A stretch of DNA of 64,000 nt, from positions 124,001-188,000 of the forward strand of contig NZ_KB891852.1 in the NCBI RefSeq assembly GCF_000373565.1. Direction: 5' to 3'. The position numbers were made by a program, and so were the translations under genes. Source of the stretch: Streptomyces sp. HmicA12. GTDB taxonomy: Bacteria > Actinomycetota > Actinomycetes > Streptomycetales > Streptomycetaceae. The notes below the pieces were generated by a model. That model saw nothing but the letters and a program-made list of their open reading frames with translations. It did not search any database and was not told where the DNA came from. Every line of letters starts with the position of its first letter. Within the stretch, counting starts at the first letter, position 1. Below are positions 258 through 17,076 of this stretch, in pieces.

Positions 258-340
258 GCCCTTCCCCGGGGCCGCGCCGCCGCCCGCACGGCGCGGCCCC
301 CGTCCACCCCTGCACCACACCACACACCACGGAGCTACCC

Positions 341-631
341 ATGAAGATCATCCTGGTCATCGACGGCGCCGAGCTGCGCTTCGACCTGACCCCGCCGGAC
401 CTGCCGTTCGTCCCCGGCGCCACCGTCGAACTCCCCCTGGGCGACGGCGAGGAGCCCCTGACGGCCGAGGTCCGCAACATCGTGATCAGCTACCCCGCCT
501 CCCACATCGTTCTGGTCTCCACTCCGCGCCCCGGCACGCTGCTGAAGGACCTCCCGGCCCTCCTGGAGCGCAGCGAGTACATCAGCAACGTGACGCTGCG
601 CCTGCCGGGGTGGGACGAGGACGACCTGTAG
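341..631 (+). CDS. small hypothetical protein
   Basis: This 96-residue protein starts at ATG 341, preceded by GGAG at 331-334. It alternates hydrophobic and polar residues (MKIILVIDGAELRF at the start), suggesting a small all-beta or alpha/beta fold; there is no signal peptide or membrane segment. It ends with an acidic tail WDEDDL. It sits between two other small unknown genes in what appears to be an element operon. I do not recognise a family. Confidence 0.6.
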   Translation: MKIILVIDGAELRFDLTPPDLPFVPGATVELPLGDGEEPLTAEVRNIVISYPASHIVLVSTPRPGTLLKDLPALLERSEYISNVTLRLPGWDEDDL

Positions 632-724
632 CACCGCGCCGGGCGTCCAGCCCGCCCCGTTCCCCCGGGGTCGCACCGCCACCCGTGCGGCGCGCCCCTC
701 CACCATCCACCGACCGGAGACCCC

Positions 725-1303
725 GTGAAGAAGCCCCTGGACGTGAACGAAGCGCTCGCCCTCGTGCGCGAGCAAGTCGCCACCTGGACCGAGAGCATGG
801 ACGCCAGCATTGCGGGCCGTTACTCACAGACCCTGGGCTGGCAGATCGACCGCTCGGAGGAGCGCGAGAAGACGGCCGAGACGCTGGTGGCGGCCTGGAA
901 GGCCCTGGACGAGCACCTGACCCGCTCCCAGGGTCAGACCCGCCCCGAGGAATGGCGCGTCGCACCGCTCACCGACGAGCAGTACGCCAGCGCGTTCACC
1001 AAGTGGCCGGAGCTGAACCTGTTCGGCGAGCACTTCGTACGGCAGCTGACCCGCCACCACTCCATCCGGTACGTCCGTGACCTCGCACGCCGCGCGGAGA
1101 GCGGCACAACCACGCTGGCCGAGTTGGCGCACGCGGCGGTCGGCCCCGCGCTCCAGGCGGACGACGAGTGCACGTGCGTCATCAACTGCGCCGAGGACCC
1201 GCGGTCGGGGTGCAGCCTCTCCGGCCGTCGCCACGTCCACCCCCTGACCCAGGGCCAGTACGGGCCGTGCCCCGAGCACCCCGACGCCGAGGGCGACCTG
1301 TAG
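725..1303 (+). CDS. hypothetical protein with C-terminal Cys/His cluster
   Basis: The 192-residue product starts at GTG 725 with CGGAG a few bases upstream. Residues 1-140 are helical and charged. The C-terminal 50 residues hold four spaced cysteines (CTCVIN, CAED, GCSL) and later HVHP and CPEHP, so a small metal-binding site is possible. There are no membrane segments. It lies in the same operon-like run as its neighbours, 68 bp before the PAPS-reductase-like gene. The family is not recognised. Confidence 0.6.
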   Translation: MKKPLDVNEALALVREQVATWTESMDASIAGRYSQTLGWQIDRSEEREKTAETLVAAWKALDEHLTRSQGQTRPEEWRVAPLTDEQYASAFTKWPELNLFGEHFVRQLTRHHSIRYVRDLARRAESGTTTLAELAHAAVGPALQADDECTCVINCAEDPRSGCSLSGRRHVHPLTQGQYGPCPEHPDAEGDL

Positions 1304-1371
1304 CCCACATCCAGCCGGGGCGGCGGAGAGCGACCGCCGCCCCACCCGACCTGAACCGAAAGGCCCTGCAC

Positions 1372-2154
1372 GTGGTTGCCACGGCACAGACCCTCTTCGA
1401 GCTGCCCGCACCGGCCGATCCGGCGCCCGCCCCCGCCGAGCCTGCGGGGAAGCGGCCCACCGTCCTGTCGTACGGGCTGGGCGCGGACTCGACCGCGATC
1501 CTCCTCAAGTTCCTCGCCGACCCGGCCGCGTACGGTCTCGAGCCCGCCCTGTCGGACCTGATCGTCGTGCACTCGGTGACCGGCGACGAGTGGCCCGATT
1601 CCCTCTCGTACGTCGACCGCCTGGTGCTGCCGCTGCTCGCGGCCCGGAAGGTGCGCACGGTGCAGATCGCGCGCGGCGGCCGTCGGGACGCCGACGGGGT
1701 GGTGATCCTGGACGACTCCCGTACCCCGCACCGGATCTGGGCGTCGGGGCCGTGGCGGCTGTCAGTGGAGCTCCGCGCGGCCGGCACGGTGCTCCAGATG
1801 GCGAACGGGCGGCGCACGTGCTCAAGTCGGTTCAAGGGTTGGTGCCTTGACGCGTGGGCCGCGTACGAGTTCGGCACGGCCACGTTCCGGCGCGTGATCG
1901 GCTACCACGCGGGGGAGCGCCCCAGGGCGGCGAAGGACTCGGTGATCCAGGAGCGCATCAACCACGACGCCGGGCGCATCGTGTGCGAGCCGTACCACCC
2001 GCTGATCGACACCGACGGCATGGACCGGGCCGCGGTCGAGGCGTACGTCTTCGAGCAGCTCGGCGAGAAGATCCGCAAGAGCTACTGCGACGTCTTCTCT
2101 ATTGAATCTACGTGTTACACCTGTTTGTGTTGCGCATGGAAGGAAGCACGTTGA
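1372..2154 (+). pseudogene. PAPS-reductase/ATP-pyrophosphatase-like protein, C-terminally truncated
   Basis: GTG 1372 follows GAAAGG and opens a 260-residue frame. The N-terminus carries the PP-loop signature SYGLGADST of the phosphoadenosine-phosphosulfate reductase / N-type ATP-pyrophosphatase superfamily, followed by the usual alpha/beta segments and a central Cys (RRTCSSRFK). Members common in actinophages and integrative elements continue after KSYC into a Cys/Phe-rich region; here the frame changes character after about base 2095 and ends in an unrelated, lower-GC Cys-rich tail of about 18 residues. I read this as a rearrangement that replaced the true 3' end. The substrate is unknown. 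The stop overlaps the next start (TTGA at 2151-2154). Confidence 0.55.
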
Positions 2155-2945
2155 GCACGGAATGGCATGTGTGCTGGGTGACGAACGAGTCTCCGGTAAC
2201 AGTCAGTGACAGTCCGATCCTTCAGAGGTGGGCCGACCTCGTGGACCGTGAGGCCGCCTTGCGGATCGATCCGGGCGACTCGATCCTCGTTGACCCCAAC
2301 AGCCGGGTTGATCCACGGCTGACGCTGTACACGACGCGCTCGGCGTACGCGAGGCTCGCTGTCTCGACGCGGAAGAACTACGCCACCGACTTGTGCCTGT
2401 TCTTCAACTTCCTGTGGCAGCGGGGCAAGAACTGGGACGAGGTGACTGCCGAAGACCTGCTGGACTTCGAGGACTGGCGCCGGTGGTCGCCGCGGAATCC
2501 GCAGCGGATCGGTAGCTCGAAGTGGAACCGTGAGCTGGCGGCATTGCGGCGGCTGTACAAGTGGGCGGTGGGCAAGCGCTACATGGCCGTGAGCCCGGTG
2601 GTCGAGCGCGAGGTCATGGGCCGTCACGGGCAGATGATCAGTGTTCCCGCCGCTCGTGCGAAGGACGCCCGCGCCAGCAACGTGAAGTGGCTCACGCCGA
2701 GGGCGTATCGGATGTGGAGGGACGTCGGCCTGCGCGGCTACACGCCGGAAGGCCGCCGAGACCCGTCGTTCCGGGGCCGGAACGACGACCGCAACGCGGC
2801 CTACTCCGACGTGCTGTTCTCCTCCGGGATACGGCGCACGGAGGGCGGGTCGCTGCTGACCATTGAGGTGCCCGACCTGGCGGGCGTCCGATCAGCCCGG
2901 ACGATGAGCCTTGCTTCTCCAGGACGAGGATGGCTTTGGTGGTGA
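2151..2945 (+). pseudogene. tyrosine recombinase/integrase, 3'-truncated
   Basis: The start is likely TTG 2151 after GGAAGGA. The product has a SAM-like core-binding domain (residues about 55-150; TRKNYATDLCLFFNFL, NRELAALRRLYKWAV) and the beginning of a tyrosine recombinase catalytic domain, including the box I arginine in SSGIRRTEGGSLL. The frame then runs into the 3' end of a degenerate IS at about 2890 and stops at 2945, so the catalytic Lys/His-x-x-Arg/Tyr part is missing. It should be inactive. It probably once integrated the element of which the left part of this window is a relic. Confidence 0.7.
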
Positions 2946-3665
2946 CGCTTATCCGGTCGGGACTGATGCGGGACCTGCGGAAGATTTGCCAGGACTTCAG
3001 CCGGGACATGCCTAGTTCTACGGATGCACGGTCCAAGACAGGGCCCGGCTTTCGGTCCGTTCGGTGAGGGTGAGTTCACCACCTGGCGGGTGGCGCTTGG
3101 CGGTGGTGACCCGGTCGCCCGCGCTGATGAAGGCCATGTCGGCGAGGATCGGGACGCCCTGGCGTGTGCAGATATGAAGGATCTTGTGGATACGGGCGGC
3201 CGTCAGATCATGGGTCCGGCCCGGCAATGCCGAAGACGAGCGCGCCATCCAGGAGGATGAAGTCTGGGTCGTGCACGCGCAGCGAATTCAGCAGGCCCGG
3301 CGCCTGCTCGGCGCGTAGCCCGGTGACGTAGGTGTGGGCGGTGTCGACGGAAATCCCGAAGGCCGTAGCGGTCCGGGCGAGGTGGCGTGGCGGTGCAGAT
3401 GCACGAGTGCGGCCAGCGCACGTTGGTGCCGCGGTTGCACCGCCGGCCGCCTTCGCGGGGGACGATGAGCATGGTGACCCACTCGACCAAGGTGTGGGGT
3501 AGGTCAAGTGCGGCAGAATACAGAACCAACAGAGCTCCTGAGCTGCTAAGTCGAGACGTTCAACACCTCTCTCAACGGCACGGGAGCCCTGTCCGTTGGG
3601 TACCGCGGCCTCACACCGCCCCGTCACCCGCTCAGTGGCCACGCTGAAAAGGATCAACGACTCAC
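2905..3665 (-). mobile_element. degenerate IS5-family insertion sequence (transposase remnant)
   Basis: On the minus strand, pieces of a DDE_Tnp_4-type transposase are recognisable in several frames: [16 protein letters not shown] near 3470-3520, FGISVDTAHTYVTGL and DPDFILLDGA near 3240-3360, [10 protein letters not shown] near 3190-3220, and RLKSWQIFRRSRISP near 2950-3010. They line up in order with the intact transposase at 17,087-17,836. There are at least two frame breaks, and a deletion of about 40 codons between LLDGA and GRAHD removes part of the catalytic core. The copy is diverged, not recently duplicated, and cannot be functional. It interrupts the integrase gene. Confidence 0.75.
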
Positions 3666-4387
3666 TGGCGTGCTCTCGCCCTCCCCACCCCTTCGGTTGT
3701 GTCTGTTGCCCGAAGTCTGCCGCGCATCCGGACCAGCAGATGAATCATGAAATCCAAGGGGGTCGATACCGCGAGCTAGAAGCGCGACGCATTCAGGACA
3801 GCAAACGCTGGCACGAATCGACAGAATCAGTCCACGAACAACCCCTGCCAGAAAAATGGCTCGTGAAGTCGAGCGATTTCGCTTCAAGAGTGCCTTCGTC
3901 TCTGCGGCCTGCAGCTGAGTCTCTTTAAGTGCTGCAGCGCCTCTGGCCGTGAGTGCGATAAAAGAGACAGCAACGCGAGTGTCCAGGCTTGAGTGCGGCC
4001 GACCTCGCCACGGCGACTATCGCCGCATCCATGCTCCGAAGAAGCTCCTGACCTGGGGCGGGACGATGGACATCCCGCTAGAGATCTGTCAGCGCCTTCG
4101 GAGTTGGTCCCTCCGGGTGCTGCGCTCAGCAAGGGGAGGGACCAACTCCGAAGGCTGACCGCCCTGGTGCAGGGCTACGAGAAACACTCCGATGCGCCCC
4201 ATCACCAGCCGCTCAATCATCACCCTACGGGCACTCGGCGAGTCGACCTCGTCGAGTTGGAACCGCGGCCAGACCAGGGAAGACTCCCAGCCTCTGCTAT
4301 CCGTCATAGCGGACCGTCGGGAGCTGCGACGTTGGCGATGTAACCACGACCGCTCGAATCACCGGCACGTAGGTACTGGCATGCGCA
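3666..4387. other. non-coding stretch between IS remnant and amidinotransferase
   Basis: About 720 bases with no convincing gene on either strand; the open frames here have no ribosome-binding site and unnatural composition. The only clear structure is the long inverted repeat at 4094-4155, listed separately. The region probably consists of element debris. Confidence 0.5.
4094..4155. repeat. 21-bp perfect inverted repeat with nested inner stem
   Basis: Arm 4094-4114 begins GCCTTCGGAGTTGG and is the exact reverse complement of 4135-4155. The 20-base spacer itself contains a 5-bp stem (TGCTG 4118-4122 / CAGCA 4127-4131), so the RNA could fold as one long hairpin. There is no T-tract. It lies 230 bp beyond the stop codon of the amidinotransferase and could serve as a terminator, or be the relic of a small mobile element or a recombination site. 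Confidence 0.7.
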
Positions 4388-5533
4388 TCAGGCGGAGTAA
4401 TCCTCGAGCGTTCCTTCGCGGACCGTGTCAAGGGTGAAGCAGTGGAACCCACCGCCGAATAGGCGCCGATGCCGGTGCTGCACCGGGACGACCGTGAAGC
4501 CCTCATGCTCAAGTGTCTTGACGAGTTCCATGCAGTCTTGGTTGACCATTACGGTGTTCGGATCTACCGACAGGACATTGAGGTCGATGTACGGGCTGGT
4601 CAGCACAAGATCATCGCCGTCATACGTGGGGAAATGCCCGGTACCAGGCTCTGGCGGGACGATGAACTTCCACTTGTTGAAGGGTGCTGGCAGAAAGTCC
4701 CTGATTCCAGCGTGGCGCGCAAGGAAGGTGCCCGGCCTCAGCGCGAGCAGCATGCTGTCGATGTGGTTGTCGGCCATGCGACTCACGCGGTGTATGCGAT
4801 ACGAATCCCCAAGGTGCCGCTCGAGCCAGTCACATGCTGCAGCATGGTTGGCGTTCGCGATATTGATGATGAGATCTCGGCCGAGCCGCAGGCACTGGGC
4901 GCCATCCAACATCATTTCGTAACCGACGTCGTAGGGCGACGGGTGGGGGTCTTCGATCGGCTCGGTGGGACCACCCAATGTCGTTTCGGTATCGCGCGCA
5001 TACGAGAGATCGAACGAAGCATCCGTCAGCAGCGGACGGGGCATAGTGGTCCATTTGGCGCCGTGATCGTAGTAGTGCTGAAAAACCTGGGCCAGAAGCC
5101 GCGTCTCCAGGTACCTAGATCGAATCGCAGGCGGCGTCTCAATGATCTCATCACCCAGGACTAGCGTGTTATCCCGGATGTTCAGCGCAGGAACAGGGGC
5201 GGCACTCCAGCCGAAGCCGCTGATCGGCTCGGGGTTGGGCGCCAACGGCTTCGGACGGTGCACCGTGATGCCCAACTCTGAAAAGGTGCCAGCAAGAGCC
5301 TCAACGTCCTCGTGCAGCTCCTCGACGTATCGCTGCTTAATCTCCCAACTACGGCTCTTCACTGACGAGCCGCTTGCTTGCTGTAGGCGGGGATACGCCC
5401 AGTCGGACCGGAAAATGTTCTCGTGAAAAAAGAGATCAAACGAGAGCTCGCGGTCATGGGACGTGTAGTTCTCGGCGGACCCAACCACGATCTCTCGCAG
5501 CGGGGACCAGTCGTTATGGCTGTTGAGTTGCAT
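4388..5533 (-). CDS. amidinotransferase (glycine/inosamine-phosphate type)
   Basis: This 381-residue protein, close to the family's usual length, belongs to the arginine:glycine / scyllo-inosamine-phosphate amidinotransferase group, which moves the amidino group of arginine onto an amine to give a guanidino compound and ornithine. The catalytic triad is visible: Asp210 in MMLDGAQCLRLGRD, His257 in DNHIDSML, and nucleophile Cys365 in GGGFHCFTLD; the spacings match the family. ATG 5533 follows AGGAAAGG. It is transcribed away from the operon starting at 5961 and is part of the same low-GC island. In this context it probably makes a guanidino building block for the peptide pathway, as amidinotransferases do in guanidino-peptide antibiotics. 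The amine acceptor cannot be read from the sequence. Confidence 0.88.
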   Translation of the reverse strand: MQLNSHNDWSPLREIVVGSAENYTSHDRELSFDLFFHENIFRSDWAYPRLQQASGSSVKSRSWEIKQRYVEELHEDVEALAGTFSELGITVHRPKPLAPNPEPISGFGWSAAPVPALNIRDNTLVLGDEIIETPPAIRSRYLETRLLAQVFQHYYDHGAKWTTMPRPLLTDASFDLSYARDTETTLGGPTEPIEDPHPSPYDVGYEMMLDGAQCLRLGRDLIINIANANHAAACDWLERHLGDSYRIHRVSRMADNHIDSMLLALRPGTFLARHAGIRDFLPAPFNKWKFIVPPEPGTGHFPTYDGDDLVLTSPYIDLNVLSVDPNTVMVNQDCMELVKTLEHEGFTVVPVQHRHRRLFGGGFHCFTLDTVREGTLEDYSA

Positions 5534-5960
5534 GGAACATACCTTTCCTGCCCAAGGATCAGGAGCGCGGCATCACACGAAGCCAACCGCGGAACCGAGC
5601 CGGTGCGCCCGAAAAACGATGGACTCCACACACATTTAAGTATCCAGACGTTTCCGTCAACGCGAGCCGCGTTGGAACTGCGCAATACCCACCCATTGAA
5701 TCGGGGATGCGGGCGCACACTGCTCGAGCACGTAAGCATGAGAGCCGCAAGTCGCCCCGAGATCCGGAGTCTTGCTTGCCGATCATCACAGGTCAACCCC
5801 CCGGGCAGGGGCGCCATAACGCTTCTGTGACGACCTATAGCGCAAGCGAATACAAACTGCCGAAACCGGTCAAACATGTACGTATGATCCGAGTTCCCGG
5901 TCGATGCTTGACGCCTACAGCAAGCGCTATCTAGCTTTGTCGATCACTTGGGGGGAACGG
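5534..5960. other. divergent intergenic region of the biosynthetic island
   Basis: About 430 bases between the amidinotransferase and the forward operon. The forward promoter at 5908-5937 is clear. For the reverse gene only a weak TTGACC/TATTCG pair (5873-5847, 15-bp spacer) was found. No convincing ORF or operator repeat was seen in the remainder. Confidence 0.5.
5908..5937 (+). promoter_or_regulatory. predicted sigma-HrdB-type promoter of the peptide operon
   Basis: TTGACG at 5908-5913 and TAGCTT at 5932-5937 are separated by 18 bp, which matches the Streptomyces vegetative consensus (TTGAC, 18 bp, TAG/AnnT). Transcription would start near 5944, only about 17 bases before the GTG of the 30-codon ORF. 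Confidence 0.55.
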
Positions 5961-6053
5961 GTGGCTGTACACAGCAAGTACACCCAGCTGAAATTTACGA
6001 AGTCCTTGCAAGGCCCCCAGTTTCAGAATGGACTCGGTCGGGACGCACTGTGA
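5961..6053 (+). CDS. 30-residue ORF at the head of the operon
   Basis: GTG 5961 follows a GGGGGAA ribosome-binding site (5951-5957) and lies just downstream of the predicted promoter. It encodes 30 residues (MAVHSKYTQLKFTKSL... ending GLGRDAL) and stops at TGA 6051-6053. It is basic in the first half, with no signal or membrane segment. It could be a leader peptide controlling the operon, a second precursor peptide or a chance frame. The position and the Shine-Dalgarno sequence are the only support. Confidence 0.35.
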   Translation: MAVHSKYTQLKFTKSLQGPQFQNGLGRDAL

Positions 6054-6133
6054 GTGGGAGCGTCCTGGAGAGTTCCCAATCTCGCTATGCCTCAGTCGTC
6101 CTTTGGGTGGCTCAGGAAGTGGAGGGACGAGCG

Positions 6134-7084
6134 TTGGACCTGTATCCGAAGATCGAGCCCTATGCCGACGGAATGCTGGACGTCGGTGACGGACATGAGA
6201 TTTACTGGGAAACGAGCGGCAACCCAGAGGGATCGCCAGTTCTGACCCTGCATGGGGGACCCGGATCAGGCAGTGGCGCCGGCTTGCGAAGGATGTGGAA
6301 CCCGGAGCGGTACCGCATTATCCAGATGGATCAGCGAAACTGTGGACGAAGCACGCCGTCTGCGGCAGATCCAGCCGTCCGGATCACCCACAACACTACC
6401 CAGCATCTCGTTGCCGACATGGAACGGCTTCGCGAGCATCTCGGCGTAGAGCAGTGGGGATTGTGGGGTGGCTCGTGGGGAACAACGCTCGCGTTGATCT
6501 ATGCCCAAACACATCCTGAGCGTGTACGTTCTCTACTTCTCATGTACATGATGCTCGCGCGGAAGGGAGATTTGCGCTGGTTGTACCAGGAGATGGGGAG
6601 ATACTTCCCGGAAGAGTGGAACTCCTTCCGGGCGGGAGCTGGAAACGACACAAGCGGTGATCATAATCTCCTGACGGCCTATAACCGGCTCCTCAACGCT
6701 GAGCACAACGAGATCGTTCAGCGTGAAGCGGCCCGCAATTGGTGTGCCTGGGAAGACGTGATCTCAAGCCTGGACCCGGGTTGGAAGCCTTCGAAGCGAT
6801 ACACCGATCCAGATTTTGCCATGCAGTTCGCACGCATAGTTACACACTATTTCAGTAACGATGCATGGCTGGACGAGAATCAGATACTTCGAAATTCTGA
6901 TCGACTCAAAGGAATACCAGGGTTCATCTTGCACGGACGCGAGGATCGCGCTAATCCCTATGACATGGCCTGGTTGCTTGCAGAAGCATGGCCGGATGCT
7001 GAGCTGGTGACCATTTCTGGCGTTGGGCACAGTCACACGGACGACAGTACGGCCCTTATGTTCCGAGCGGCGAATCAGCTATGA
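6134..7084 (+). CDS. proline iminopeptidase-type alpha/beta hydrolase (peptidase S33)
   Basis: TTG 6134 is chosen because GGAGGG lies at 6121-6126 and the protein then begins MDLYPKIEPYADGMLDVGDG, the usual start of prolyl aminopeptidases, giving 316 residues, the family length. The oxyanion HGGPGSGSG motif and the nucleophile elbow GGSWGTTLAL are intact, as are the late Asp (HGREDRANPYD) and His (GVGHSHTD) of the Ser-Asp-His triad. The family removes N-terminal residues from short peptides. Inside a peptide-modification operon it may trim the Met-Thr end of the MTYDH product or release an acyl-peptide. The stop is 40 bases before the next start. Confidence 0.85.
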   Translation: MDLYPKIEPYADGMLDVGDGHEIYWETSGNPEGSPVLTLHGGPGSGSGAGLRRMWNPERYRIIQMDQRNCGRSTPSAADPAVRITHNTTQHLVADMERLREHLGVEQWGLWGGSWGTTLALIYAQTHPERVRSLLLMYMMLARKGDLRWLYQEMGRYFPEEWNSFRAGAGNDTSGDHNLLTAYNRLLNAEHNEIVQREAARNWCAWEDVISSLDPGWKPSKRYTDPDFAMQFARIVTHYFSNDAWLDENQILRNSDRLKGIPGFILHGREDRANPYDMAWLLAEAWPDAELVTISGVGHSHTDDSTALMFRAANQL

Positions 7085-7124
7085 CAAGACGCGGCAAGTA
7101 CGAGTCGCCCGGGAGGCAGGCGGC

Positions 7125-8435
7125 ATGAGGATCTTGATAGGAAACGACGCCGACCGCTCCATACGAGAACGCAAGGACACACGCAGCTCGGCACAGCGAA
7201 TCATCTGGTTCGCCGGTTCGCAGGACGTAGTGGTATTGCCTGCGCAGCCAGACCCAGACTACGTGCGTCACGTGACCGCTTTGACCGGAGCTGACGCCAA
7301 CACCATCCGGTTCTACGTACCACCTGGAGGTTCGCTCGACTCCAGCAGTCTTACTGACAAGAACTTTCTGCGTGACGTCAACGATGGCTTGGGTAACTGC
7401 ACGGAGGTGTTCGCCTTGTGGCCTTCACCGCATGTAGCTGCCTTTTCCAAAGCCTTGGGTCTCCGAGAAAATCTGGCAGGCGCGGCATTCATCGAGCAAG
7501 CTGGCGGCGCGCTAGCCAACTCGAAAGCCTACTTCCGAGCCTTTGCTGGAGGCGCTGGCGTTCCGATACCTGCAGGTACGGTCTGCCACTCCGTCTCTGA
7601 GGCACGCGAGGCCATGGTGAGTCTGTTGTCCAACTCAGACGCGGTGGTTGTCAAGCAGGCCCATAATGGTTCCGGCAACGGAAATCAACTCGTGCTGCGC
7701 AGCGAAGTGGAAGTCGGACAGGCGGGGGCGCGCCACCTCTACGCTCTGGACCATGGACCAGATGCGGTCGATAAGTACTGGGCTGAGCAGTGGAGTTGGG
7801 CATCAGTAAACGGACGCTTCCCAGTTGTGTTGGAGGAGTTCGTTCCTGAAGCAAAGTCCGTCTACTCGGAGTACCACGTCGACGATGGAGGCGTGACAGC
7901 AACAGGCAGCGGAATTCTCTCCTATGAGAATCGACAGCTTGCAGCACAGATTGTGCCGCTTCAGCCGGAGAATCTTGGCGCCAAATCGTTTCGAACGCTC
8001 ATCGATGAAGGTCGAAAACTTGCCGAGGTGTACCGGTCAATAGGTTACCGAGGATACCTTTCGGCCGACGCCTTGGTAGACCCCTCTGGGAAAGTGACAT
8101 TCACGGAAGCCAACTCACAAGTTTCCGGCTCACTGCATCTCTACTCGGTCATCGCTGACAAGATTATCCGCACCGTTGATAGCCCTCGGCGATACGTTGC
8201 GGAGTACGACATACCGGATTCATGGAACGTCGGCTGTGTGGACCAGTTCCTGAAGGCAATGGAAGAGTCCGGTGACCTCTACGACTCAGATTCCCGACTT
8301 GGTGTGATGCTGTCCGTTCCCTTCCTTCCTACCGGGCAGGGAAAAGGTGGGATGCTCTGCATCACCTACGACTCGGAACAGAACCGAGATGCGATGTACC
8401 ACCGCGTGCAGAGCCAGTTCAGTTCCGTTCAATAG
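7125..8435 (+). CDS. ATP-grasp peptide ligase, PGM1-like
   Basis: ATG 7125 follows GGGAGG and gives 436 residues. The layout matches the peptide ligase of pheganomycin biosynthesis (PGM1): a pre-ATP-grasp domain (about residues 22-130), an ATP-grasp core with ATP-binding Lys177 (AVVVKQ) and glycine loop NGSGNGNQ (181-188), adenine-contact VVLEEFV (234-240), metal ligands in FTEANSQVSG (326-335), and a C-terminal PGM1_C-like domain. PGM1 activates the carboxylate of a non-proteinogenic amino acid and couples it to the N-terminus of a ribosomal peptide. Sitting directly upstream of the MTYDH gene and opposite an amidinotransferase, this enzyme most likely acylates the peptide with a guanidino acid. 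The substrate is inferred only. Confidence 0.85.
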   Translation: MRILIGNDADRSIRERKDTRSSAQRIIWFAGSQDVVVLPAQPDPDYVRHVTALTGADANTIRFYVPPGGSLDSSSLTDKNFLRDVNDGLGNCTEVFALWPSPHVAAFSKALGLRENLAGAAFIEQAGGALANSKAYFRAFAGGAGVPIPAGTVCHSVSEAREAMVSLLSNSDAVVVKQAHNGSGNGNQLVLRSEVEVGQAGARHLYALDHGPDAVDKYWAEQWSWASVNGRFPVVLEEFVPEAKSVYSEYHVDDGGVTATGSGILSYENRQLAAQIVPLQPENLGAKSFRTLIDEGRKLAEVYRSIGYRGYLSADALVDPSGKVTFTEANSQVSGSLHLYSVIADKIIRTVDSPRRYVAEYDIPDSWNVGCVDQFLKAMEESGDLYDSDSRLGVMLSVPFLPTGQGKGGMLCITYDSEQNRDAMYHRVQSQFSSVQ

Positions 8436-8462
8436 ACCTACTTACACGAAAGGAGGGTAATC

Positions 8463-8480
8463 ATGACCTACGACCACTAA
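8463..8480 (+). CDS. five-residue precursor peptide MTYDH (biarylitide bytA-like)
   Basis: ATG-ACC-TAC-GAC-CAC-TAA at 8463-8480 encodes MTYDH. It has a near-perfect Shine-Dalgarno sequence, AAAGGAGGG at 8449-8457, with a 5-base spacer, stronger than that of any neighbour. It begins 27 bases after the ligase stop and is followed by a perfect hairpin. The peptide fits M-x-Y-x-H, the pattern of biarylitide precursors (for example MRYYH, MRYLH), whose Tyr and His are joined by a cytochrome P450; a P450 is encoded in the same operon at 10,185. Tyr-Asp-His would be the mature core, with Asp in the middle position where reported cores carry Tyr or an aliphatic residue. The alternative is a translated spacer or attenuation minigene. 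Confidence 0.72.
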   Translation: MTYDH

Positions 8481-8488
8481 ATATGTGC

Positions 8489-8516
8489 ATTGGGCTCGGC
8501 TTCGGCCGAGCCCAAT
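8489..8516 (+). terminator. perfect 12-bp hairpin with UUCG tetraloop after the pentapeptide gene
   Basis: Arms ATTGGGCTCGGC (8489-8500) and GCCGAGCCCAAT (8505-8516) pair completely around TTCG, closed by C-G, the exceptionally stable cUUCGg loop. It starts 8 bases after the stop codon of MTYDH. Only a weak T-rich run (CTTCTCTTG) follows, so it probably acts as a partial terminator or an RNA stabiliser that keeps the precursor transcript more abundant than the downstream genes. Confidence 0.75.
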
Positions 8517-8564
8517 GGCTTCTCTTGATGACCTTGTGAACATGTACATTTGGTGGGAGGCGTG

Positions 8565-10160
8565 ATGAGTGCCGTTCTCCGATTGGCCGGTGAGCTCACT
8601 GCAAGCATCATGGCCTACCGGTATCTGGTTTCCCCGTGTATCCGTTGGGCTGCAAGGAAATTGGGAGCGGGTGACTATCCGCAAAATTCGCTAAACGGGG
8701 CGTATCCAGAGGGCAGCGCAGCGCGCACCGAGACTATTCGAGTAGTCGCGATCGTGCTGCCGGCCACCTTGGTTCTCTGTGTCATTTTCAAATTCGATTG
8801 GGAGACCATCGCGCTTGTTCCAGGGGCCGCGCTAGGTCTGGTCCTCTGGAAATGCTTGACATCCGACTATGACGTTGCCAGGGACATTTCGTGGCAACGA
8901 ATCGATCGCATGGTAGCCCTGGCGCTAGGAGTCGCAGCCCCAATTTATCAACCCCTGCAGCTCGCTGCGATAATATTTCTGTGTGGGCGACTCGGAGCCT
9001 GGACACATCACTCCAAGGCATGTCTACGCATCGTTAAAATGTCCTGTGCTTGGATGCTCGTTGACGGGTTCGCAGTTATCGCATTCGGGTCTAGCCGCCC
9101 CATATCTACCACTGGCCAGTTGGTCCTTTTCGGCACAGTCTTTCTTTCTCATTACGTTGTGGCATTCAAGACGAAGACTGTTCTTGCCGGGAATCCTTGG
9201 AAATGGATCGCTAACAATCGTACAGATCTCCTAGTAGCGAACGCATACGCATGGGGGTGGGGACGCTTCCTACCTCAAGAGCGCGTGAGTTCTTTGATCC
9301 GACGCCTCTCCCCCTGGGTTGTCCCAATTAATACTGCGACGCTAGTAACTCAAGCTCTTGGGCTCGTGGCGTACACAACCCCATGGTGTCTGATTACAGC
9401 GCTAATGGGGGCAATCGTTTTCAACGTAATGGTAGCGCTACTTTCCGGCCTCTTCTTTTGGGAGAATATCGGGATAGCTTTGACCATCGGACTGACCGTC
9501 CTCTGCCATCCTCAGGACTTCTCAACTGCCTTTGGAATCGCTCCATGTGGACTAAGCATTGGAATTTTGCTTCTTGCAATTTCCAAATGGTCATGGAAGC
9601 CCACAGGCCTGGGATGGTGGGATACGCCCTACACCTCTCGTGTCTACTGGACGGCAGTCACGCGCAGTGGCCTAGTCGTCGGCCTGTACAACAATCACTT
9701 CAGCCCCCATGACCGGGAATATGGTCGGGATCTGGGTAATTATCTGACTACTGAACCTGTGGTGACCTTTTCCATGGGAGGCGTTGAAGATAGCTCGCTC
9801 AAGGACCTTCTCCTAGATATGCGCATCCATGGTCGAGATCTGCTGGACATCAAGGATGAATACGGGCAATCAAAGTGGAGAGCAGACTTCGTTCGCGGAC
9901 ATATTCAATACATGCGAAATTTGATCCGCGGCCTGAATTCAGGGACTCGCAAGAATCCACTACCTGAAGGTCTCCGGTGGCTTAGAGCTCCTGGTGGACA
10001 CCTTTATTACTGGGGTCCTCTGCCGCGCTACGAGCGGAAGAAGCACGGGGCCATTAACGCGGTACGAGTAAACCAACGAGAAATCTTCTTCGTGACTTCG
10101 GAGTGCTCATGGGTGGTCCTGCGGGACGAGCTTCTTTTTCAAATTGATACCAGTGAATAA
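8565..10160 (+). CDS. unrecognised polytopic membrane protein with soluble C-terminal domain
   Basis: ATG 8565 follows GGGAGG (8555-8560) and gives 531 residues. Roughly residues 50-345 contain about eight hydrophobic segments (for example IVLPATLVLCVIF, LVLFGTVFLSHYVVAF, LGLVAYTTPWCLITALMGAIV); residues about 360-531 are soluble, rich in Arg, Tyr and Trp, with YNNHFSPHDREYGRDLG and GGHLYYWGPLPRYERKKHG. The topology is loosely like HTTM / vitamin-K-carboxylase-type proteins, but I see no diagnostic residues and make no family claim. It lies between the pentapeptide gene and the P450 (24-bp gap), so it is probably a pathway component, perhaps a membrane-bound modification enzyme or transporter. 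Codon use is less GC-rich than the chromosome to the right. Confidence 0.75.
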   Translation: MSAVLRLAGELTASIMAYRYLVSPCIRWAARKLGAGDYPQNSLNGAYPEGSAARTETIRVVAIVLPATLVLCVIFKFDWETIALVPGAALGLVLWKCLTSDYDVARDISWQRIDRMVALALGVAAPIYQPLQLAAIIFLCGRLGAWTHHSKACLRIVKMSCAWMLVDGFAVIAFGSSRPISTTGQLVLFGTVFLSHYVVAFKTKTVLAGNPWKWIANNRTDLLVANAYAWGWGRFLPQERVSSLIRRLSPWVVPINTATLVTQALGLVAYTTPWCLITALMGAIVFNVMVALLSGLFFWENIGIALTIGLTVLCHPQDFSTAFGIAPCGLSIGILLLAISKWSWKPTGLGWWDTPYTSRVYWTAVTRSGLVVGLYNNHFSPHDREYGRDLGNYLTTEPVVTFSMGGVEDSSLKDLLLDMRIHGRDLLDIKDEYGQSKWRADFVRGHIQYMRNLIRGLNSGTRKNPLPEGLRWLRAPGGHLYYWGPLPRYERKKHGAINAVRVNQREIFFVTSECSWVVLRDELLFQIDTSE

Positions 10161-10184
10161 ATCCGTCCTAAAGGAATGGGTGTC

Positions 10185-11351
10185 ATGGTTTCCAAACCGA
10201 TCTACAACCCGCTCGACCCTACGGTGCTCGCTGACCCATATCCCGTATATCGGAAACTGCGAGAGGAATATCCGGTCTTCTGGCATGACCAGATGGAGTC
10301 GTGGGTAGTCACGCGCTATCGAGATTGCCAAGAGGTCCTCCGCAACCACGCGAGGTACGCGCGCGATCGGCGGCGTGTAGGCATAGACGTGCCGGAGTTC
10401 CGTCAAAACCTGCAATCACTCGACCCGCCGCAACTCGCTCCGTTGCGAAGTCTGCTGATGAATGCGTTTCACTCTCAGGACCTCGAAGAAGTCGGCTTCC
10501 GAACTCGGGCACGTGTCAGCGAGATCTTCACCCGTTTTCTCGATGAGCCCGAATTTGACTGGATCAGCCAGGTTGCTGCACCAGTGGCCTTGACACTTAC
10601 TTCGGAACTGTTCGGCATAGTCGAGCCTGACCTCGACAGGTATACGCAGATTGCCGATGCCATCACTAGGCGGATGGATGCAGGACTTGACCCGAGCGTC
10701 GTGCTTGCCGGCGATCAGGCGCGCAAGGAACTCAACTCTCTCGCAGATCAGTGGTTGGACAGCCATTACGCGAAGGCGGGTCTGCTCACGACCATCAAGG
10801 AAACGTTGGAAGGCAGTGGAGTCCCCGAGCACTACATTAGGAACACGACGGGCGTGATGTTCAACGCCAGCTACGGGACGGTGTTCGCTGCAGCTGGCAA
10901 CTTTGTGTACACCCTGCTCAACCATCCCGGCACACTCGAGCAGTTTCGTGATGACGAGATCATGGCACGTGGGGTGGAAGAGCTGATTCGCTTCGACGGT
11001 CCAGCTCAGGGCACCACCCGAATCGCCGTGAAGCGGAGCCAACTTGGCGGGCAAACCATCGAGGCGGGCCAACCGATTATCACGCTACTTGCGGCAGCTA
11101 ATCGCGACCCAGACGAGTTCCCCCGCCCAGAGGAGTTGGTTCTCAACCGCTCCCCGAACCGGCACCTGGGCTTTGGTTGGGGACCCCACGCTTGTCTCGG
11201 TGCCCGTTTCGGAAATGTGGCCATCCAGGAGATTATCCGGTGCCTTCTGGGTACGCCGGCCACGTTGGAAATGGTTGATCAGCCGGTGCGCCGGGCGACC
11301 GCAACAGTGCGCAGCATGGACTCCCTTCCTGTCCGCTTCACCCAACATTAG
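10185..11351 (+). CDS. cytochrome P450, candidate Tyr-His cross-linking enzyme (bytO-like)
   Basis: ATG 10185 is preferred over 10176 because the ribosome-binding site AAAGGA (10170-10175) would abut the latter. The 388-residue protein is of normal bacterial CYP length. The haem-binding loop FGWGPHACLG places the cysteine ligand at 337; the K-helix ExxR is E266-R269. In the I-helix the usual A-G-x-D/E-T reads ASYGT (228-232): the threonine is present but the acidic residue is glycine, as seen in some P450s that couple aromatic residues instead of hydroxylating. Given the MTYDH gene in the operon, the likely reaction is an oxidative biaryl bond between Tyr3 and His5. No ferredoxin or reductase gene is nearby, so general cellular partners must supply electrons. 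Confidence 0.88.
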   Translation: MVSKPIYNPLDPTVLADPYPVYRKLREEYPVFWHDQMESWVVTRYRDCQEVLRNHARYARDRRRVGIDVPEFRQNLQSLDPPQLAPLRSLLMNAFHSQDLEEVGFRTRARVSEIFTRFLDEPEFDWISQVAAPVALTLTSELFGIVEPDLDRYTQIADAITRRMDAGLDPSVVLAGDQARKELNSLADQWLDSHYAKAGLLTTIKETLEGSGVPEHYIRNTTGVMFNASYGTVFAAAGNFVYTLLNHPGTLEQFRDDEIMARGVEELIRFDGPAQGTTRIAVKRSQLGGQTIEAGQPIITLLAAANRDPDEFPRPEELVLNRSPNRHLGFGWGPHACLGARFGNVAIQEIIRCLLGTPATLEMVDQPVRRATATVRSMDSLPVRFTQH

Positions 11352-11379
11352 TGAAAGTTATAGGAGTGAGGACGGGAAC

Positions 11380-12609
11380 ATGCACTTCGTCCTGCTAGGC
11401 CCTGGTCCGGAGGCTGCGGCCGTTCATGCCCTTGCTGATCTTGGCCACGAAATCACTGTTCTGTACACCGAACGCAATCGTGATGCGGTACTCGGAGCGG
11501 CTGACCGAATCAAGAGAAGCGGCTTCGTGCCCTCGTATGACTGTCCGGAGCTTGCCTGGGCTTCTCTGATTCACCTCGGTGCAACGCATGACGTGCATAG
11601 TGTGATACCGGTACACGAGATGGCCGTCACCACCGCTGCCTTCCTCAATGATGCACTGCAGCTCCCTGCGGCTCATGGACCTGTAGCTGCTATGGCGGGC
11701 CGCGACAAGGCATTCCAGAAGTCCTTGTGGGAGCGTTGCGGCGTTCCGACATCCAGACATGTCGCGCTGACTAACACTCCGCAGAGCCTCGCAGATCTGG
11801 AGACACAACTTGGGGAGCTTCAAGGCCCCTTCATCGTCAAACCTCCAGCCATGGGTGGTAGTACGCTCGTCTCTGAGTGCTCAACCACGCATGAAGTGTA
11901 CGTGCTGCTGAGTAACAACCCTGCGTTGCGACACGCTGTTGTGGAGGAAAAGCAAAATGGCACCGAGTGGCATTTCGACGGCGTTCTGAAAGACGGTCGA
12001 GTCCAACATCTCATGGTGTCGCGATACTTGGCGCCGTTGCTTGAGACAAAAAGAGGCTTGACTAATCGCTCAGTGTCCTTTCCGCCGCATCAACATGTAA
12101 GTCTCTATGCGGATGCAGGCGATTTCGCACAAGCTGCCGTCAGCGCTCTGAACGGTATCAGTGGGGTGTTTCACCTCGAAGTCTTTGGGGAGCCGGGGCA
12201 ATTCGTCGCCGGTGAACTGGCCTGGCGACCGTCAGGAGCCCTGGCCAGCTTGGTAGCGGTTAATACCATCGGCCTGGATTTGTGGACCGCCCATGTTCGC
12301 TCGCTCGTTGGCTCCGATGTTGTGCTAGGCCACCCCAAGACCGATGCGGCCTTCGGGTTCGCCTGTCTGCCTGTCAGTCCCGGGAGACGCAACGGGGTTT
12401 CACACGCAGACATTGAAGCGTTGCCCGGTGTCCGTCACGTTCGAATGAGGGTTCCGCTCGGTGAGGTCATGACGGAAGCCACCACGAGCACAGTGTGCGT
12501 AGCCATGGTGCTAGTCGAGGGGTCTGACATTCAATCATGTGAACGCCTAATTGATGATGCTTGCCAGTCTACTTACGAACTTCACCAACGACTCAGTAAT
12601 TCCACATGA
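11380..12609 (+). CDS. second ATP-grasp carboxylate-amine ligase
   Basis: ATG 11380 follows AGGAGTGAGG and gives 409 residues. It has a Rossmann-like N-terminal domain (MHFVLLGPGPEAAAVHALADLG, a pre-ATP-grasp fold as in amino-acid ligases and biotin-carboxylase-like enzymes), ATP-binding Lys154 in FIVKPPAMGGST, the adenine/metal segment VVEEKQNGTEWHFDGV (187-202), and catalytic-site residues in FHLEVF and ELAWRPSGA. It resembles L-amino-acid ligases rather than the PGM1 group. It may join another amino acid to the peptide or build the acyl unit used by the first ligase. The gap to the P450 is 28 bp, so the two are probably co-transcribed. Confidence 0.85.
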   Translation: MHFVLLGPGPEAAAVHALADLGHEITVLYTERNRDAVLGAADRIKRSGFVPSYDCPELAWASLIHLGATHDVHSVIPVHEMAVTTAAFLNDALQLPAAHGPVAAMAGRDKAFQKSLWERCGVPTSRHVALTNTPQSLADLETQLGELQGPFIVKPPAMGGSTLVSECSTTHEVYVLLSNNPALRHAVVEEKQNGTEWHFDGVLKDGRVQHLMVSRYLAPLLETKRGLTNRSVSFPPHQHVSLYADAGDFAQAAVSALNGISGVFHLEVFGEPGQFVAGELAWRPSGALASLVAVNTIGLDLWTAHVRSLVGSDVVLGHPKTDAAFGFACLPVSPGRRNGVSHADIEALPGVRHVRMRVPLGEVMTEATTSTVCVAMVLVEGSDIQSCERLIDDACQSTYELHQRLSNST

Positions 12610-12810
12610 GCGGACTTTCCTGTTTGGCGGGGCAGCTCTGTAGTGGATCTCGTTGAGCATACCTAGGAAGTGAGCCATCCTGCGAGGAGTCGCTTCTGGT
12701 GCACACCAGTCCTCGCCGGCCCCCACGCCCTGCGCCCTACTGGCGGAGCCTGCCGGCCGCGGGGGAGAGATTGAGAAAGACGTCTTACGCACACGAGTAG
12801 GGGAGCAACT

Positions 12811-15800
12811 GTGAAAGAGACAAGGGGCGACAACTTGCATCCTGAGCTCGAGTGCTCGCTGGGGGACTGGGATGCTCGACTTCTGGGCAACCATCGAATC
12901 TTGGTTCTCGTCGACACCCCGGCCCAGGCGGTTCGCGTCATTTTGCCATGGCGACGTCAGGATGAACGGCCCGAGCGCGTCGATCTAATTGTCATAGCGC
13001 GCGCCACTGGCGAGCGTGTGAGAAATGTGGTTCGGCTGTGCGATGAGCAGTATTGCGGCGACATCATCTTCGAACCAACGGCTGGCGCCGGTGAGTACTA
13101 CTTCTACTATCTGCCCTACGCACTTATCGGTGGCCGCAACTACCCAGACGCTTTCTACCTTCCGTGGCGACCTCTAGAGAGCCCAGAGTGGCGATTCGCC
13201 AGCGGTGTGGATGACCCCGCGTCCTGGGACTCATTTCCCCGAGCGACTGCTACTACCTATCAGGCAATTTCAAAGCACGATACTTTCGCCCCGATGGGAT
13301 TCCCGGCTACCGATCGGGAATTGAAGGAACTTCATCTTAAGCATCAGGGTAAACGCTTTGTCCTTTTTCCGGAATCTCGCTTTCGCCCGATCGAGATGGT
13401 TAGACACATCCCTGCACTTTGGTTGAATCGCACACCTTCACGTCTGTCTGGGGTAATTCGGCGAGGCGAGTTTTTCTGTTTTCAAGTTGGCGTCCATGCT
13501 CTTACCGATGTCGCCGTCGAAGTTGACACTGCCGGCATGCCTTTTCCCACACGTTCATTGATGACAGAGGGTGTGCGCGCAGACGGCAGTTCATTCCAGG
13601 GAAAGACGATATTGGTGCGCGAGGGAGAGGTTGCCGCGCTATGGTTTGTCACCCCAATACCGTTGAACTGCAGTCTCGGCGTCCACGAGGGCTCTCTCCT
13701 TATCGGAGGAGAGACCGTACAAGTCACGCTCACATCAACCGAGAACGCTATCGTTGCTGACGGCGGCGTCCGGGAATTGGACTCGATGGCCCGCCTTGGT
13801 TGGCTAGACTCCTCTATCGCGCACGACTGCTCGCTCATAGCACCCTATGAGGCCGTACGGTTTGATTCAGATAAGCGCGCCATGTCCATTCTGGGAAGGC
13901 GAGTCGATATCGGAGATGACGGATTTCCTGCTCAAATCTCATCTCATTTCTCCAGTGATATCACAACCCTGACTGATCATCCAAAGAGCATTTTGAGCCG
14001 CCCGATTTCGTTTAATATCGGACGGGAAGTGGTGGCACACGGAGAGCCTCATGTTGAGGCGAAGGGGCCAGCCGAAGTTTTCTGGCGGCAAGAATTCTCG
14101 GCAGACGGCTGCATCCTTCAGGTAGAGGCTACCCTGGAGGCTGATGGGCATTTGGCATACAACTGCGAATTGAGTGCCATTCAATCTACTCTTTCGCTCC
14201 CGGATGTCCGCTTGACGATTCCGATCCATCCCGACGCCTCACGCTTTTTGATGGGGCTTGGAGTACAAGGGGGCACTTGCCCCGATACGCTTGATTGGTC
14301 GTGGGATGTTGCTAACAAAAACCAAGATTCTGTATGGATCGGCGATGTCAACGCAGGTCTTCAGATCTCTCTTCGAGATGAAGACTATCAGCGGCCTTTG
14401 AACAGCAACTGGTACCGTTCACAACCGCTGAGAGCGCCAAAGTCTTGGAGTAACGGCGGGCGCGGTGGTGTCCGAGTAGTTAAGGGCCGAACCGAGACAA
14501 CAGTTGAAGCATACTCGGGCCCAATCGAGCTGAGTGTCGATGGCCCTTTGCGTTTCGACTTCCGGCTTCTGATAACGCCGTTCAAGATGATCTCACCGCA
14601 ACGGCAAATTACAGAACGCTATTTTCACGCCCCGAACCGCGTCGAGGAGATCAGCGGTTACGGCACGCGTCCAGTTCCTATCAACCACCCCGGCTCCCCA
14701 GAATCGGTGCGTGAGTATGGCGCCACAGTCGTTAACGTTCACCATGCCACAGCCGTGATGCCGTACATAAACGATCCGATGCTGAGCGCAAAAGCACTTG
14801 CGGATTACGTTCGCAGCGCGCATGACGTCGGCTTGCGGGTGAAGATATACAACACGGTACGAGAACTGCCTTCAGAAAGTCCTGAAGTGCATGCGCTTAG
14901 AGCTCTCGACGGTGAGGTATACGCACGCGGCCCTGCAGTTGGGCCAAGAGGAATTAACGTGGGACATATCTGGCTGCAAGAGCACTTGCCGACTAGCGTC
15001 GTTCCAGGTTATGTGTCCTCGAATGTCGAAGATCGACCCATCGTTACGAGCGGTGCGTCACGCTGGCTTAATCTGTATGTCGAAATGATTGACTGGCTTG
15101 CTCGCGAATGCCAAATCGACGGAGTGTATCTCGATGAGGTCGGATTCGACAGAAATACGATGAAAAGAGTTCGTAAGGTGCTCTCTCGGCACCGGGAACA
15201 GCCGCTTATCGATCTGCACTCGGCGAGTCAATTTCATGAAGCAGATGGCTTCGCTTCCTCGGCTAATCTATATATGGAGCACCTCCCGTATGTCGACCGC
15301 CTTTGGTTCTCCGAGTATGTTGACTATGACGAGATCGGGCCCGTTCAGTGGCTAATAGAGCTGTCTGGTGTCCCGTTCGGAGTTCTTGGCGAGATGCTTG
15401 AGGGCGGCGGTAATCCCTGGAAAGGGCTTGTGTTCGGAGCCACTGCACGAGCACCCAGAGTTGACCCGCGACCTATGTGGCGTTTCTGGGACGAAATTGG
15501 TCTATCCGAGGCGGAGATGATCGGGTGGTGGTCAGCAACCCCTCCCGTGACCACTGGCCGCAGTGACGTGCTTGCGACATCGTGGGTCGGCGATGGGTAC
15601 ACGGTTGTCGCCTTGGCCAGTTGGGCGCCCACAGATGTGGAGGTGAAGCTGGACATCGACTATAGCGCTCTCGGCCTTGAGAATCCTCATCTTGAGCGTC
15701 CTGAGATTGAAGGATTCCAGAACTTCGCTGAAATGTGCGCTAACGAAAAGATCAACGTTCCGTACAATCGCGGCCGAGTCGTGGTGATTCGAGAGAAGCA

Positions 15801-15816
15801 AGAGGGTGCGATATGA
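12811..15816 (+). CDS. 1001-residue glycoside-hydrolase-like protein (GH123/DUF6067-like)
   Basis: GTG 12811 has GGGGAG at 12800-12805. No signal peptide is visible, so it is probably cytoplasmic. Residues about 230-570 look like beta-sandwich domains (GLGVQGG, VWIGDVNAGLQISLRDEDY, PLNSNWYRSQPL, SWSNGGRGGVRV), features I associate with the DUF6067/GH123-like family; residues about 620-930 look like a TIM barrel with IDGVYLDEVGFDR, where D775/E776 sit where a glycosidase acid would be. A C-terminal beta domain follows. Such enzymes cleave or transfer sugars and are mostly known from polysaccharide users, so its place in a small peptide operon is odd; it may remove a protecting sugar or act on a glycosylated intermediate. 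Family assignment is moderate, function open. Confidence 0.7.
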   Translation: MKETRGDNLHPELECSLGDWDARLLGNHRILVLVDTPAQAVRVILPWRRQDERPERVDLIVIARATGERVRNVVRLCDEQYCGDIIFEPTAGAGEYYFYYLPYALIGGRNYPDAFYLPWRPLESPEWRFASGVDDPASWDSFPRATATTYQAISKHDTFAPMGFPATDRELKELHLKHQGKRFVLFPESRFRPIEMVRHIPALWLNRTPSRLSGVIRRGEFFCFQVGVHALTDVAVEVDTAGMPFPTRSLMTEGVRADGSSFQGKTILVREGEVAALWFVTPIPLNCSLGVHEGSLLIGGETVQVTLTSTENAIVADGGVRELDSMARLGWLDSSIAHDCSLIAPYEAVRFDSDKRAMSILGRRVDIGDDGFPAQISSHFSSDITTLTDHPKSILSRPISFNIGREVVAHGEPHVEAKGPAEVFWRQEFSADGCILQVEATLEADGHLAYNCELSAIQSTLSLPDVRLTIPIHPDASRFLMGLGVQGGTCPDTLDWSWDVANKNQDSVWIGDVNAGLQISLRDEDYQRPLNSNWYRSQPLRAPKSWSNGGRGGVRVVKGRTETTVEAYSGPIELSVDGPLRFDFRLLITPFKMISPQRQITERYFHAPNRVEEISGYGTRPVPINHPGSPESVREYGATVVNVHHATAVMPYINDPMLSAKALADYVRSAHDVGLRVKIYNTVRELPSESPEVHALRALDGEVYARGPAVGPRGINVGHIWLQEHLPTSVVPGYVSSNVEDRPIVTSGASRWLNLYVEMIDWLARECQIDGVYLDEVGFDRNTMKRVRKVLSRHREQPLIDLHSASQFHEADGFASSANLYMEHLPYVDRLWFSEYVDYDEIGPVQWLIELSGVPFGVLGEMLEGGGNPWKGLVFGATARAPRVDPRPMWRFWDEIGLSEAEMIGWWSATPPVTTGRSDVLATSWVGDGYTVVALASWAPTDVEVKLDIDYSALGLENPHLERPEIEGFQNFAEMCANEKINVPYNRGRVVVIREKQEGAI

Positions 15817-17072: not shown

Positions 17073-17076
17073 GACA

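Follow-up and report, generated by a model that had tools for sequence, protein, structure and literature searches.

Our analyses covered a 64,000-nucleotide stretch of the Streptomyces sp. HmicA12 genome (9.16 Mb in 55 contigs), hereafter the window, which contains an A+T-richer island at positions 4388 to 17072 with a G+C content of 56.6%, compared to 70.9% for positions 1 to 4387 plus 17954 to 64000. L and G numbers below denote comparison loci and genomes. The island and its right edge hold the following features:

4388 to 5533, minus strand: amidinotransferase (no Pfam match; PDB 1bwd, inosamine-phosphate amidinotransferase, E 5e-46; C-terminal GGGFHC stretch kept)
6125 to 7084, plus strand: prolyl aminopeptidase-family hydrolase, candidate leader peptidase, start codon uncertain (TIGR01249, 310.8 bits against a cut-off of 259.75)
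7125 to 8435, plus strand: PGM1-type ATP-grasp peptide ligase (PreAtp-grasp above its cut-off, PGM1_C just below; PDB 3wvq, PGM1, E 2.7e-76, a full-length match over residues 1 to 430)
8449 to 8457, plus strand: Shine-Dalgarno element AAAGGAGGG, read from the sequence
8463 to 8480, plus strand: putative precursor gene of five codons, Met-Thr-Tyr-Asp-His-stop (bytA type), read from the sequence, with counterparts in 20 other clade loci
8489 to 8516, plus strand: terminator- or attenuator-like hairpin predicted by folding, with a perfect 12-bp stem, a TTCG loop and no T-run; strong hairpin in all 21 clade loci
8565 to 10160, plus strand: membrane protein without a Pfam family, whose N-terminal membrane domain has a predicted fold resembling vitamin K-dependent gamma-carboxylase (models, VIA-align)
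10185 to 11351, plus strand: cytochrome P450 (bytO type), predicted Tyr3–His5 cross-linking enzyme (PF00067; PDB matches to the RufO and P450Blt groups; clade placement)
11380 to 12609, plus strand: second ATP-grasp ligase, L-amino acid ligase (LAL_C2) type (PF18603, 30.5 bits against a cut-off of 29.4)
12811 to 15816, plus strand: GH123_N family protein of 1001 residues (PF19543, 1024 bits; also in the nearest relative, L069, 63%)
15813 to 17072, plus strand: predicted MFS exporter (PF07690/PF05977; same gene family in six other loci, including the apparent relic L003)
17087 to 17953, minus strand: IS5-type transposase at the right edge of the island (PF13359; NF033581 below its cut-off)

The Shine-Dalgarno element is followed by the 5-base spacer TAATC (8458 to 8462) and then, on the plus strand, by ATG ACC TAC GAC CAC TAA (8463 to 8480), exactly as the first-pass annotation had given it for 8449 to 8480. 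The resulting MTYDH open reading frame (ORF) is flanked by the PGM1-like ligase gene, which ends at 8435, and by the next gene, which begins at 8565. It has the form of a biarylitide precursor (bytA), a five-residue M-x-Y-x-H ORF behind a ribosome-binding site, and a bytO-type P450 gene is found 1.7 kb away with one gene between, a distance that exceeds the conventional 500-bp range but falls within the 3 kb covered by the published CoreFinder. The pattern ATGNNNTAYNNNCAYTRR has a single match in the 64-kb window, at the sole M-x-Y-x-H-plus-stop ORF there, compared to a mean of 0.02 in 100 dinucleotide-preserving shuffles, two of which had any match. The stricter pattern of GGAGG plus MxYDH matched twice in 293 same-order whole genomes (its own genome and one other); the backwards control pattern did not occur among the matches listed for these 293 genomes. 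A search of a plasmid collection returned no similar DNA.

We compared the P450 with solved structures, of which 335 sequences matched at E ≤ 1e-10, and ranked it from the best 60 of these 335. The top eight matches (E 5e-81 to 9e-76) carry the labels RufO and P450Blt, together with the unlabelled 22yx; the next two have E values of 1e-57 to 5e-57, and other P450s follow from 4e-39 onward. RufO corresponds to 9DUJ, which the PDB search grouped with 8SPP, and P450Blt to 8U2M (PMC12186263). Thus, on sequence, the window P450 is far closer to the peptide-modifying RufO and P450Blt groups than to other solved P450s, and these, its best labelled solved relatives, both have pentapeptide substrates.

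Relatives of the P450 were collected by a contig scan, which gave 11 loci (ten close, at 45 to 58%, and one at 23%), and by searching 392 same-genus genomes, which gave 47 places in 43 genomes at E ≤ 1e-50; regions were taken from 40 of the 42 other P450-bearing genomes, G852 and G884 being left out. Removal of duplicates (L068, L070 and L071, which equal L027, L031 and L032, and L016, which equals L036) left 48 P450 loci, the window included; also outside the counts are L037, with the 23% P450 and no cluster, and L003, with no bytO-type P450. An M-x-Y-[D/N]-H ORF behind a ribosome-binding site is present in 21 of the 48 loci, as MTYDH (window), MSYDH (13 loci), MFYDH, MGYDH, MMYNH, MIYNH and MRYDHCL (three near-copies). 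The other 27 carry MRYAY with tandem P450s (4), MKYWH (12, near-copies), MRYVH, MRYLH in two copies, MRYIH, MRYIY, MRHVH (2) or MRHAH (3, one with two copies), while L086 has MRYLH ∼1.3 kb upstream and the sole candidate of L085 is an MRYLH 3.8 kb off on the other strand. In a maximum-likelihood tree of 52 P450 sequences, all 21 Asp/Asn-4 loci fall on one side of one branch (100/98), with L069 as the neighbor of the window. Since the 21 loci form one P450 clade, every locus seen that retains this P450 type also retains the five codons, with codon 2 and the flanks changing. Specifically, precursor and P450 occur together in all 20 other clade loci, 17 with the five codons intact and three near-copies with the five codons plus Cys-Leu; a locus retaining the P450 after loss of the five codons, which the first-pass annotation had named as the finding that would count against a precursor, was looked for and did not appear. 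The counts overstate independence because they include near-copies (L031 to L033, L029/L030 and the twelve MKYWH loci).

Several precursors depart from the usual arrangement. In L031–L033:9892, MRYDHCL has two extra residues, with a Cys directly past the core, at the usual position before the P450 gene. The Asn-4 precursors of L029 (L029:18720, MMYNH) and L030 (L030:20131, MIYNH) lie 7.6 and 9.0 kb from the P450 gene, farther than the 3 kb that the published tool searches (PMC13417212), and adjoin a gene for a haem-oxygenase-like iron enzyme (PF14518 for L029). The loci L077, L081, L083 and L084 each have an MRYAY precursor and then two tandem bytO-type P450 genes; with midpoint rooting of the tree, the first of these P450s group as sister to the Asp/Asn-4 clade. 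L003 (L003:9506, genome G083) has an MSYDH gene with a ribosome-binding site, a hairpin and an MFS gene, with a short repeated stretch on both sides of the locus; its genome contains no bytO-type P450 (best match E 3e-42, elsewhere) and no PGM1, and the locus looks like a relic of an L028-type cluster.

The enzyme and its predicted substrate co-vary between this clade and the other loci, as judged from our own alignment of the P450s to RufO. Arg-2 of the RufO peptide is held by Phe69 together with the B/C loop of the enzyme (PMC12186263). The counterpart of Phe69 is residue 62 of the window P450, an Arg; position 62 is Trp or Phe in 26 of the 27 loci outside the clade versus none of the 21 inside, all of which have Arg, Gly, Leu or Pro. 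Precursor residue 2 is correspondingly non-basic (Ser, Thr, Phe, Gly, Met or Ile) in 18 of the 21 clade loci, the counter-case being the three MRYDHCL loci, which keep Arg-2 despite a Leu at position 62. Two further P450 positions separate the groups completely, Arg-60 and a Lys or Arg at position 205, each found in 21/21 clade loci and 0/27 others. Arg-60 is a candidate partner of the Asp-4 side chain, although it is also present in the Asn-4 loci. In the window P450, Gly, Asn and Gly stand in place of RufO Arg231 and the I-helix residues His235 and Glu239, and therefore substrate binding and the exact cross-link may differ from those of RufO. Arg231 is one of the residues to which binding of the peptide amides and C-terminal carboxylate is attributed (PMC12186263); its counterpart is lost in all nine loci of the window's sub-branch, which includes the C-terminally extended MRYDHCL, and is kept in the other 12 clade loci and in 27/27 outside.

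The hairpin, which the first-pass annotation had not recorded, starts eight bases past the MTYDH stop. Across the 21 clade loci, the 70 bases 3′ of the stop fold at −29 to −57 kcal/mol, and the z score against dinucleotide shuffles is below −2 in 18 of them, the exceptions being L072 (−0.64), L075 (−1.50) and L076 (−1.94); for the window hairpin, 27% of random stretches drawn from the whole, more G+C-rich, window are equally stable. Strong hairpins also occur outside the clade, in all four MRYAY loci and several others, and hence are no clade-specific feature; none was seen after the precursors of L103, L106 and L107. L100 (MRYLH) and L104 (MRHAH) have two precursor copies in a row, with a strong hairpin 3′ of the second only. 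The hairpin fits a terminator or attenuator that would set the precursor-to-enzyme ratio; the main text of PMC13417212 mentions neither a hairpin nor a terminator.

Attenuators, too, are built from a very short ORF with a stable hairpin behind it, and because such a hairpin follows the ORF in 21/21 clade loci, MTYDH could be imagined as a regulatory leader whose translation controls read-through to the next gene, the peptide itself being no substrate. The gene 3′ of the hairpin, however, varies among the loci, being the P450 gene (L034-type), the MFS gene (L027, L028), the aminopeptidase gene (L069), the iron-enzyme gene (L029) or the membrane protein gene (window). Moreover, conservation is limited to Tyr, Asp/Asn and His, codon 2 being variable, and changes in the peptide go along with changes in P450 residues. 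On the variable downstream gene and this co-variation, we reject attenuation alone as the main explanation and regard it as very improbable; the ORF may have a regulatory role alongside its precursor role. Short ORFs are cheap, as the two matching shuffles illustrate, but a chance match would have to recur with a ribosome-binding site and a hairpin in 20 further loci of a single P450 clade, and that recurrence makes chance so remote that we reject it.

A different question is what the P450 does to the peptide. RufO, which nitrates, and P450Blt, which cross-links, are nearly tied as best PDB matches, and reaction-tuning I-helix positions carry other residues in the window, so an oxidation other than cross-linking, for example nitration as by RufO or a hydroxylation, has to be considered. 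Against this, no nitric oxide synthase, as expected for RufO-type nitration, is annotated among the nine ORFs of 4388 to 17953, and His-5 is invariant in all 21 loci. We consider another oxidation unlikely. The best explanation of the five codons is that they encode the precursor of a biarylitide-type peptide belonging to the family's Asp/Asn-4 branch; from comparative sequence evidence, we assign this reading a probability of about 0.8. The biarylitide-type assignment made in the first-pass annotation is thus supported by the clade-wide recurrence and by the P450 match to the RufO and P450Blt groups.

That annotation made no use of the genes likely to decide the product, namely those for the Pgm1-like ligase, amidinotransferase, LAL-type ligase, aminopeptidase and membrane protein. 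Ligase, hydroxylase and kinase genes were counted over the 48 loci by tblastn, in preference to an HMM table that included shadow-frame hits; Fisher values, which take no account of relatedness, were set aside. A PGM1-type ligase together with an amidinotransferase is present in 18 of 21 Asp/Asn-4 loci versus 0 of 27 others, the amidinotransferase-like protein of L031 to L033 having only 26 to 27% identity. The remaining loci L027, L028 and L069 have Asp-4 with no Pgm1 in the stretch examined; genome-wide, there is no PGM1 in G920 (L069) and a weak partial match (E 7e-5) in G796 (L027), and an amidinotransferase is encoded elsewhere in G796 and not in G920. Because of these three loci, Pgm1 is not needed for membership in the Asp-4 group, and the published Asp-4/Pgm1 association is strong, though with exceptions. 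The partner that never varies in the loci seen is the LAL-type ligase, found in 21/21 clade loci (the 21st on the continuation of L030) versus 0/27 others. ATP-grasp genes near some two-gene loci had been noted by Zdouc and co-workers (PMC9113118). An APH-type kinase gene accompanies 14 of the 21 clade loci. An Asp/Asn hydroxylase gene (PF05118 for L072) is found in 12 of the 21 and in 2 of the 27 others. Hydroxylase genes also occur in the Asp-less loci L077 (MRYAY) and L100 (MRYLH) and, as reported, in the published MRYVH cluster (PMC13417212), which makes action of this enzyme on Asp-4 less likely. Prolyl aminopeptidase genes occur in the window, L029, L030 and L069, and pyroglutamyl peptidase genes in L027 and L028; both enzymes are candidates for the leader-removal step. 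In the myxarylin work, cross-linking comes first and leader removal next, and characterized clusters are described as having no protease of their own, while several uncharacterized ones adjoin a prolyl oligopeptidase gene (PMC12951456).

To gain insight into the membrane protein encoded at 8565 to 10160, for which Pfam and profile searches gave nothing usable, we turned to structure prediction. AlphaFold2 gave a model with a pLDDT of 62 from five sequences and, for the membrane domain from seven sequences, a model with a pLDDT of 78.9 and a pTM of 0.84. In VIA-align, whose Z can reach 13 for unrelated helical models, all 13 top rows for the first model were vitamin K-dependent gamma-carboxylase (Z 8.3 to 10.3; next 7.0), as were all 12 for the membrane-domain model (Z 8.2 to 10.1, 211 to 246 aligned residues, rmsd 4.4 to 6.3; next 6.9). 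Foldseek, in contrast, gave no match below 1e-3 with either model (best E for the membrane domain, 0.16), and the Pfam HTTM family (PF05090) had no match at E up to 10 in seven homologs, a search in which HMMER filters drop most weak matches. Profile–profile comparison with HTTM proteins scored 20.5 over 23 columns when untrimmed and 22.3 over 143 columns with nine trimmed proteins; the controls scored 22.1 (best of 20 column shuffles), 12.2 (reversed), 14.3 and 10.1 (two MFS families) and 16.2 (a Na/H exchanger family). As 22.3 is barely above the shuffle score, we count the profile likeness as weak at best. W146, H148, H149 and K204 are invariant in 7/7 homologs, and K204 falls on the HTTM Lys in that weak alignment, whose score barely exceeds those of the shuffles. 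In the vitamin K carboxylase, Lys218 is the base, and Asn159 and His160 help hold the substrate Glu (PMC12589487).

The membrane protein is encoded in six of the 21 clade loci (window, L027, L028, L029, L030 and L069) and has no match at E ≤ 1e-3 in the nine other clade genomes searched, those of L031, L033, L034, L035 and L036 together with G927, G706, G285 and G926. It never occurs together with the hydroxylase: 12 of the 21 loci have the hydroxylase, six the membrane protein and three neither. Both are features of two sub-branches of the tree, and so descent alone could give this exclusion. A 33% homolog is encoded in L116 (genome G039) in a setting of glycosyltransferase and sugar-nucleotide genes, with no relative of the window P450 and no pentapeptide candidate in 19.5 kb; the family is therefore not confined to pentapeptide clusters.

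These genes suggest the following route. MTYDH would be translated from its strong ribosome-binding site, and the hairpin 3′ of it would probably end or damp transcription. By analogy with its family, the P450 would join the Tyr-3 and His-5 side chains, after which the Met-Thr leader would be trimmed, perhaps by the cluster-encoded aminopeptidase. As in pheganomycin, the PGM1-type ligase may couple an amidino-amino acid, supplied via the amidinotransferase, to the freed Tyr amino group, and the LAL-type ligase may add a further amide bond. The membrane protein would modify or handle the acidic peptide, and the MFS protein would presumably export the product. A bacterial carboxylase precedent is MloH of malonomycin, which reportedly acts on an Asp unit. 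A more specific version, modeled on the predicted fold, would have Asp-4 kept as a second modification site, served by a hydroxylase-type enzyme in half of the clade and, in the other half, which includes the window, by a menaquinone-dependent, vitamin K carboxylase-like membrane protein that would use CO2 to form beta-carboxyaspartate before PGM1 adds the N-terminal amidino-amino acid cap; we offer it tentatively and think it rather doubtful.

The acidic middle residue, which the first-pass annotation took to be new, is indeed present but had already been reported: PMC13417212 (July 2026) describes 277 clusters, 47 of which have a Pgm1 homolog and Asp at position 4, and calls the latter hybrids of biarylitide and pheganomycin machinery. 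The Asp-4/Pgm1 group is therefore already known, and the window combines its two marks, MTYDH and the ligase of 7125 to 8435, in one cluster with a bytO-type P450. The window differs from the group, as far as the main text describes it, in the 1.7-kb distance between precursor and P450 genes, the LAL-type ligase, the aminopeptidase gene, the membrane protein with its carboxylase-like predicted fold and the lack of an Asp/Asn hydroxylase gene. In the account given there, separation of precursor and P450 by a gene is described only in one clade of six clusters, and the words membrane, carboxylase and peptidase do not occur in the main text. Likewise going beyond that text are the Pgm1-less Asp-4 loci, the distribution of the LAL-type ligase and the loss of the Arg-2-binding aromatic from the P450. 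A whole-word literature search, with figures and Table S1 of PMC13417212 outside its range, did not return the string MTYDH. Biarylitides YYH and YFH (Planomonospora), myxarylin and biarylitide YVH share a pentapeptide precursor and a cross-linking P450 with the window but have a non-acidic middle residue. With the pheganomycin pathway, the window shares the PGM1-type ligase and the amidinotransferase; it differs in its five-residue precursor and in that the nine ORFs of 4388 to 17953 include no type III polyketide synthase. No activity was found for biarylitide YVH, nor, in various assays of earlier studies, for biarylitides (PMC13417212).

Thus, as judged from sequence, MTYDH is very probably a real five-codon precursor gene that belongs to a known group and has a variant gene set, an 18-base gene that can be read from raw sequence. 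For the family, the comparison means that the published link between Asp-4 and Pgm1 is not strict and that the LAL-type ligase accompanies every clade locus seen, while two of the clade's precursors lie beyond the range of the published finder. In this P450 clade, the enzyme and its substrate appear to have changed together, which points to recognition residues that can be tested. Should the membrane protein prove to be a carboxylase, it would represent a new kind of peptide tailoring, one acting on a five-residue ribosomal peptide.
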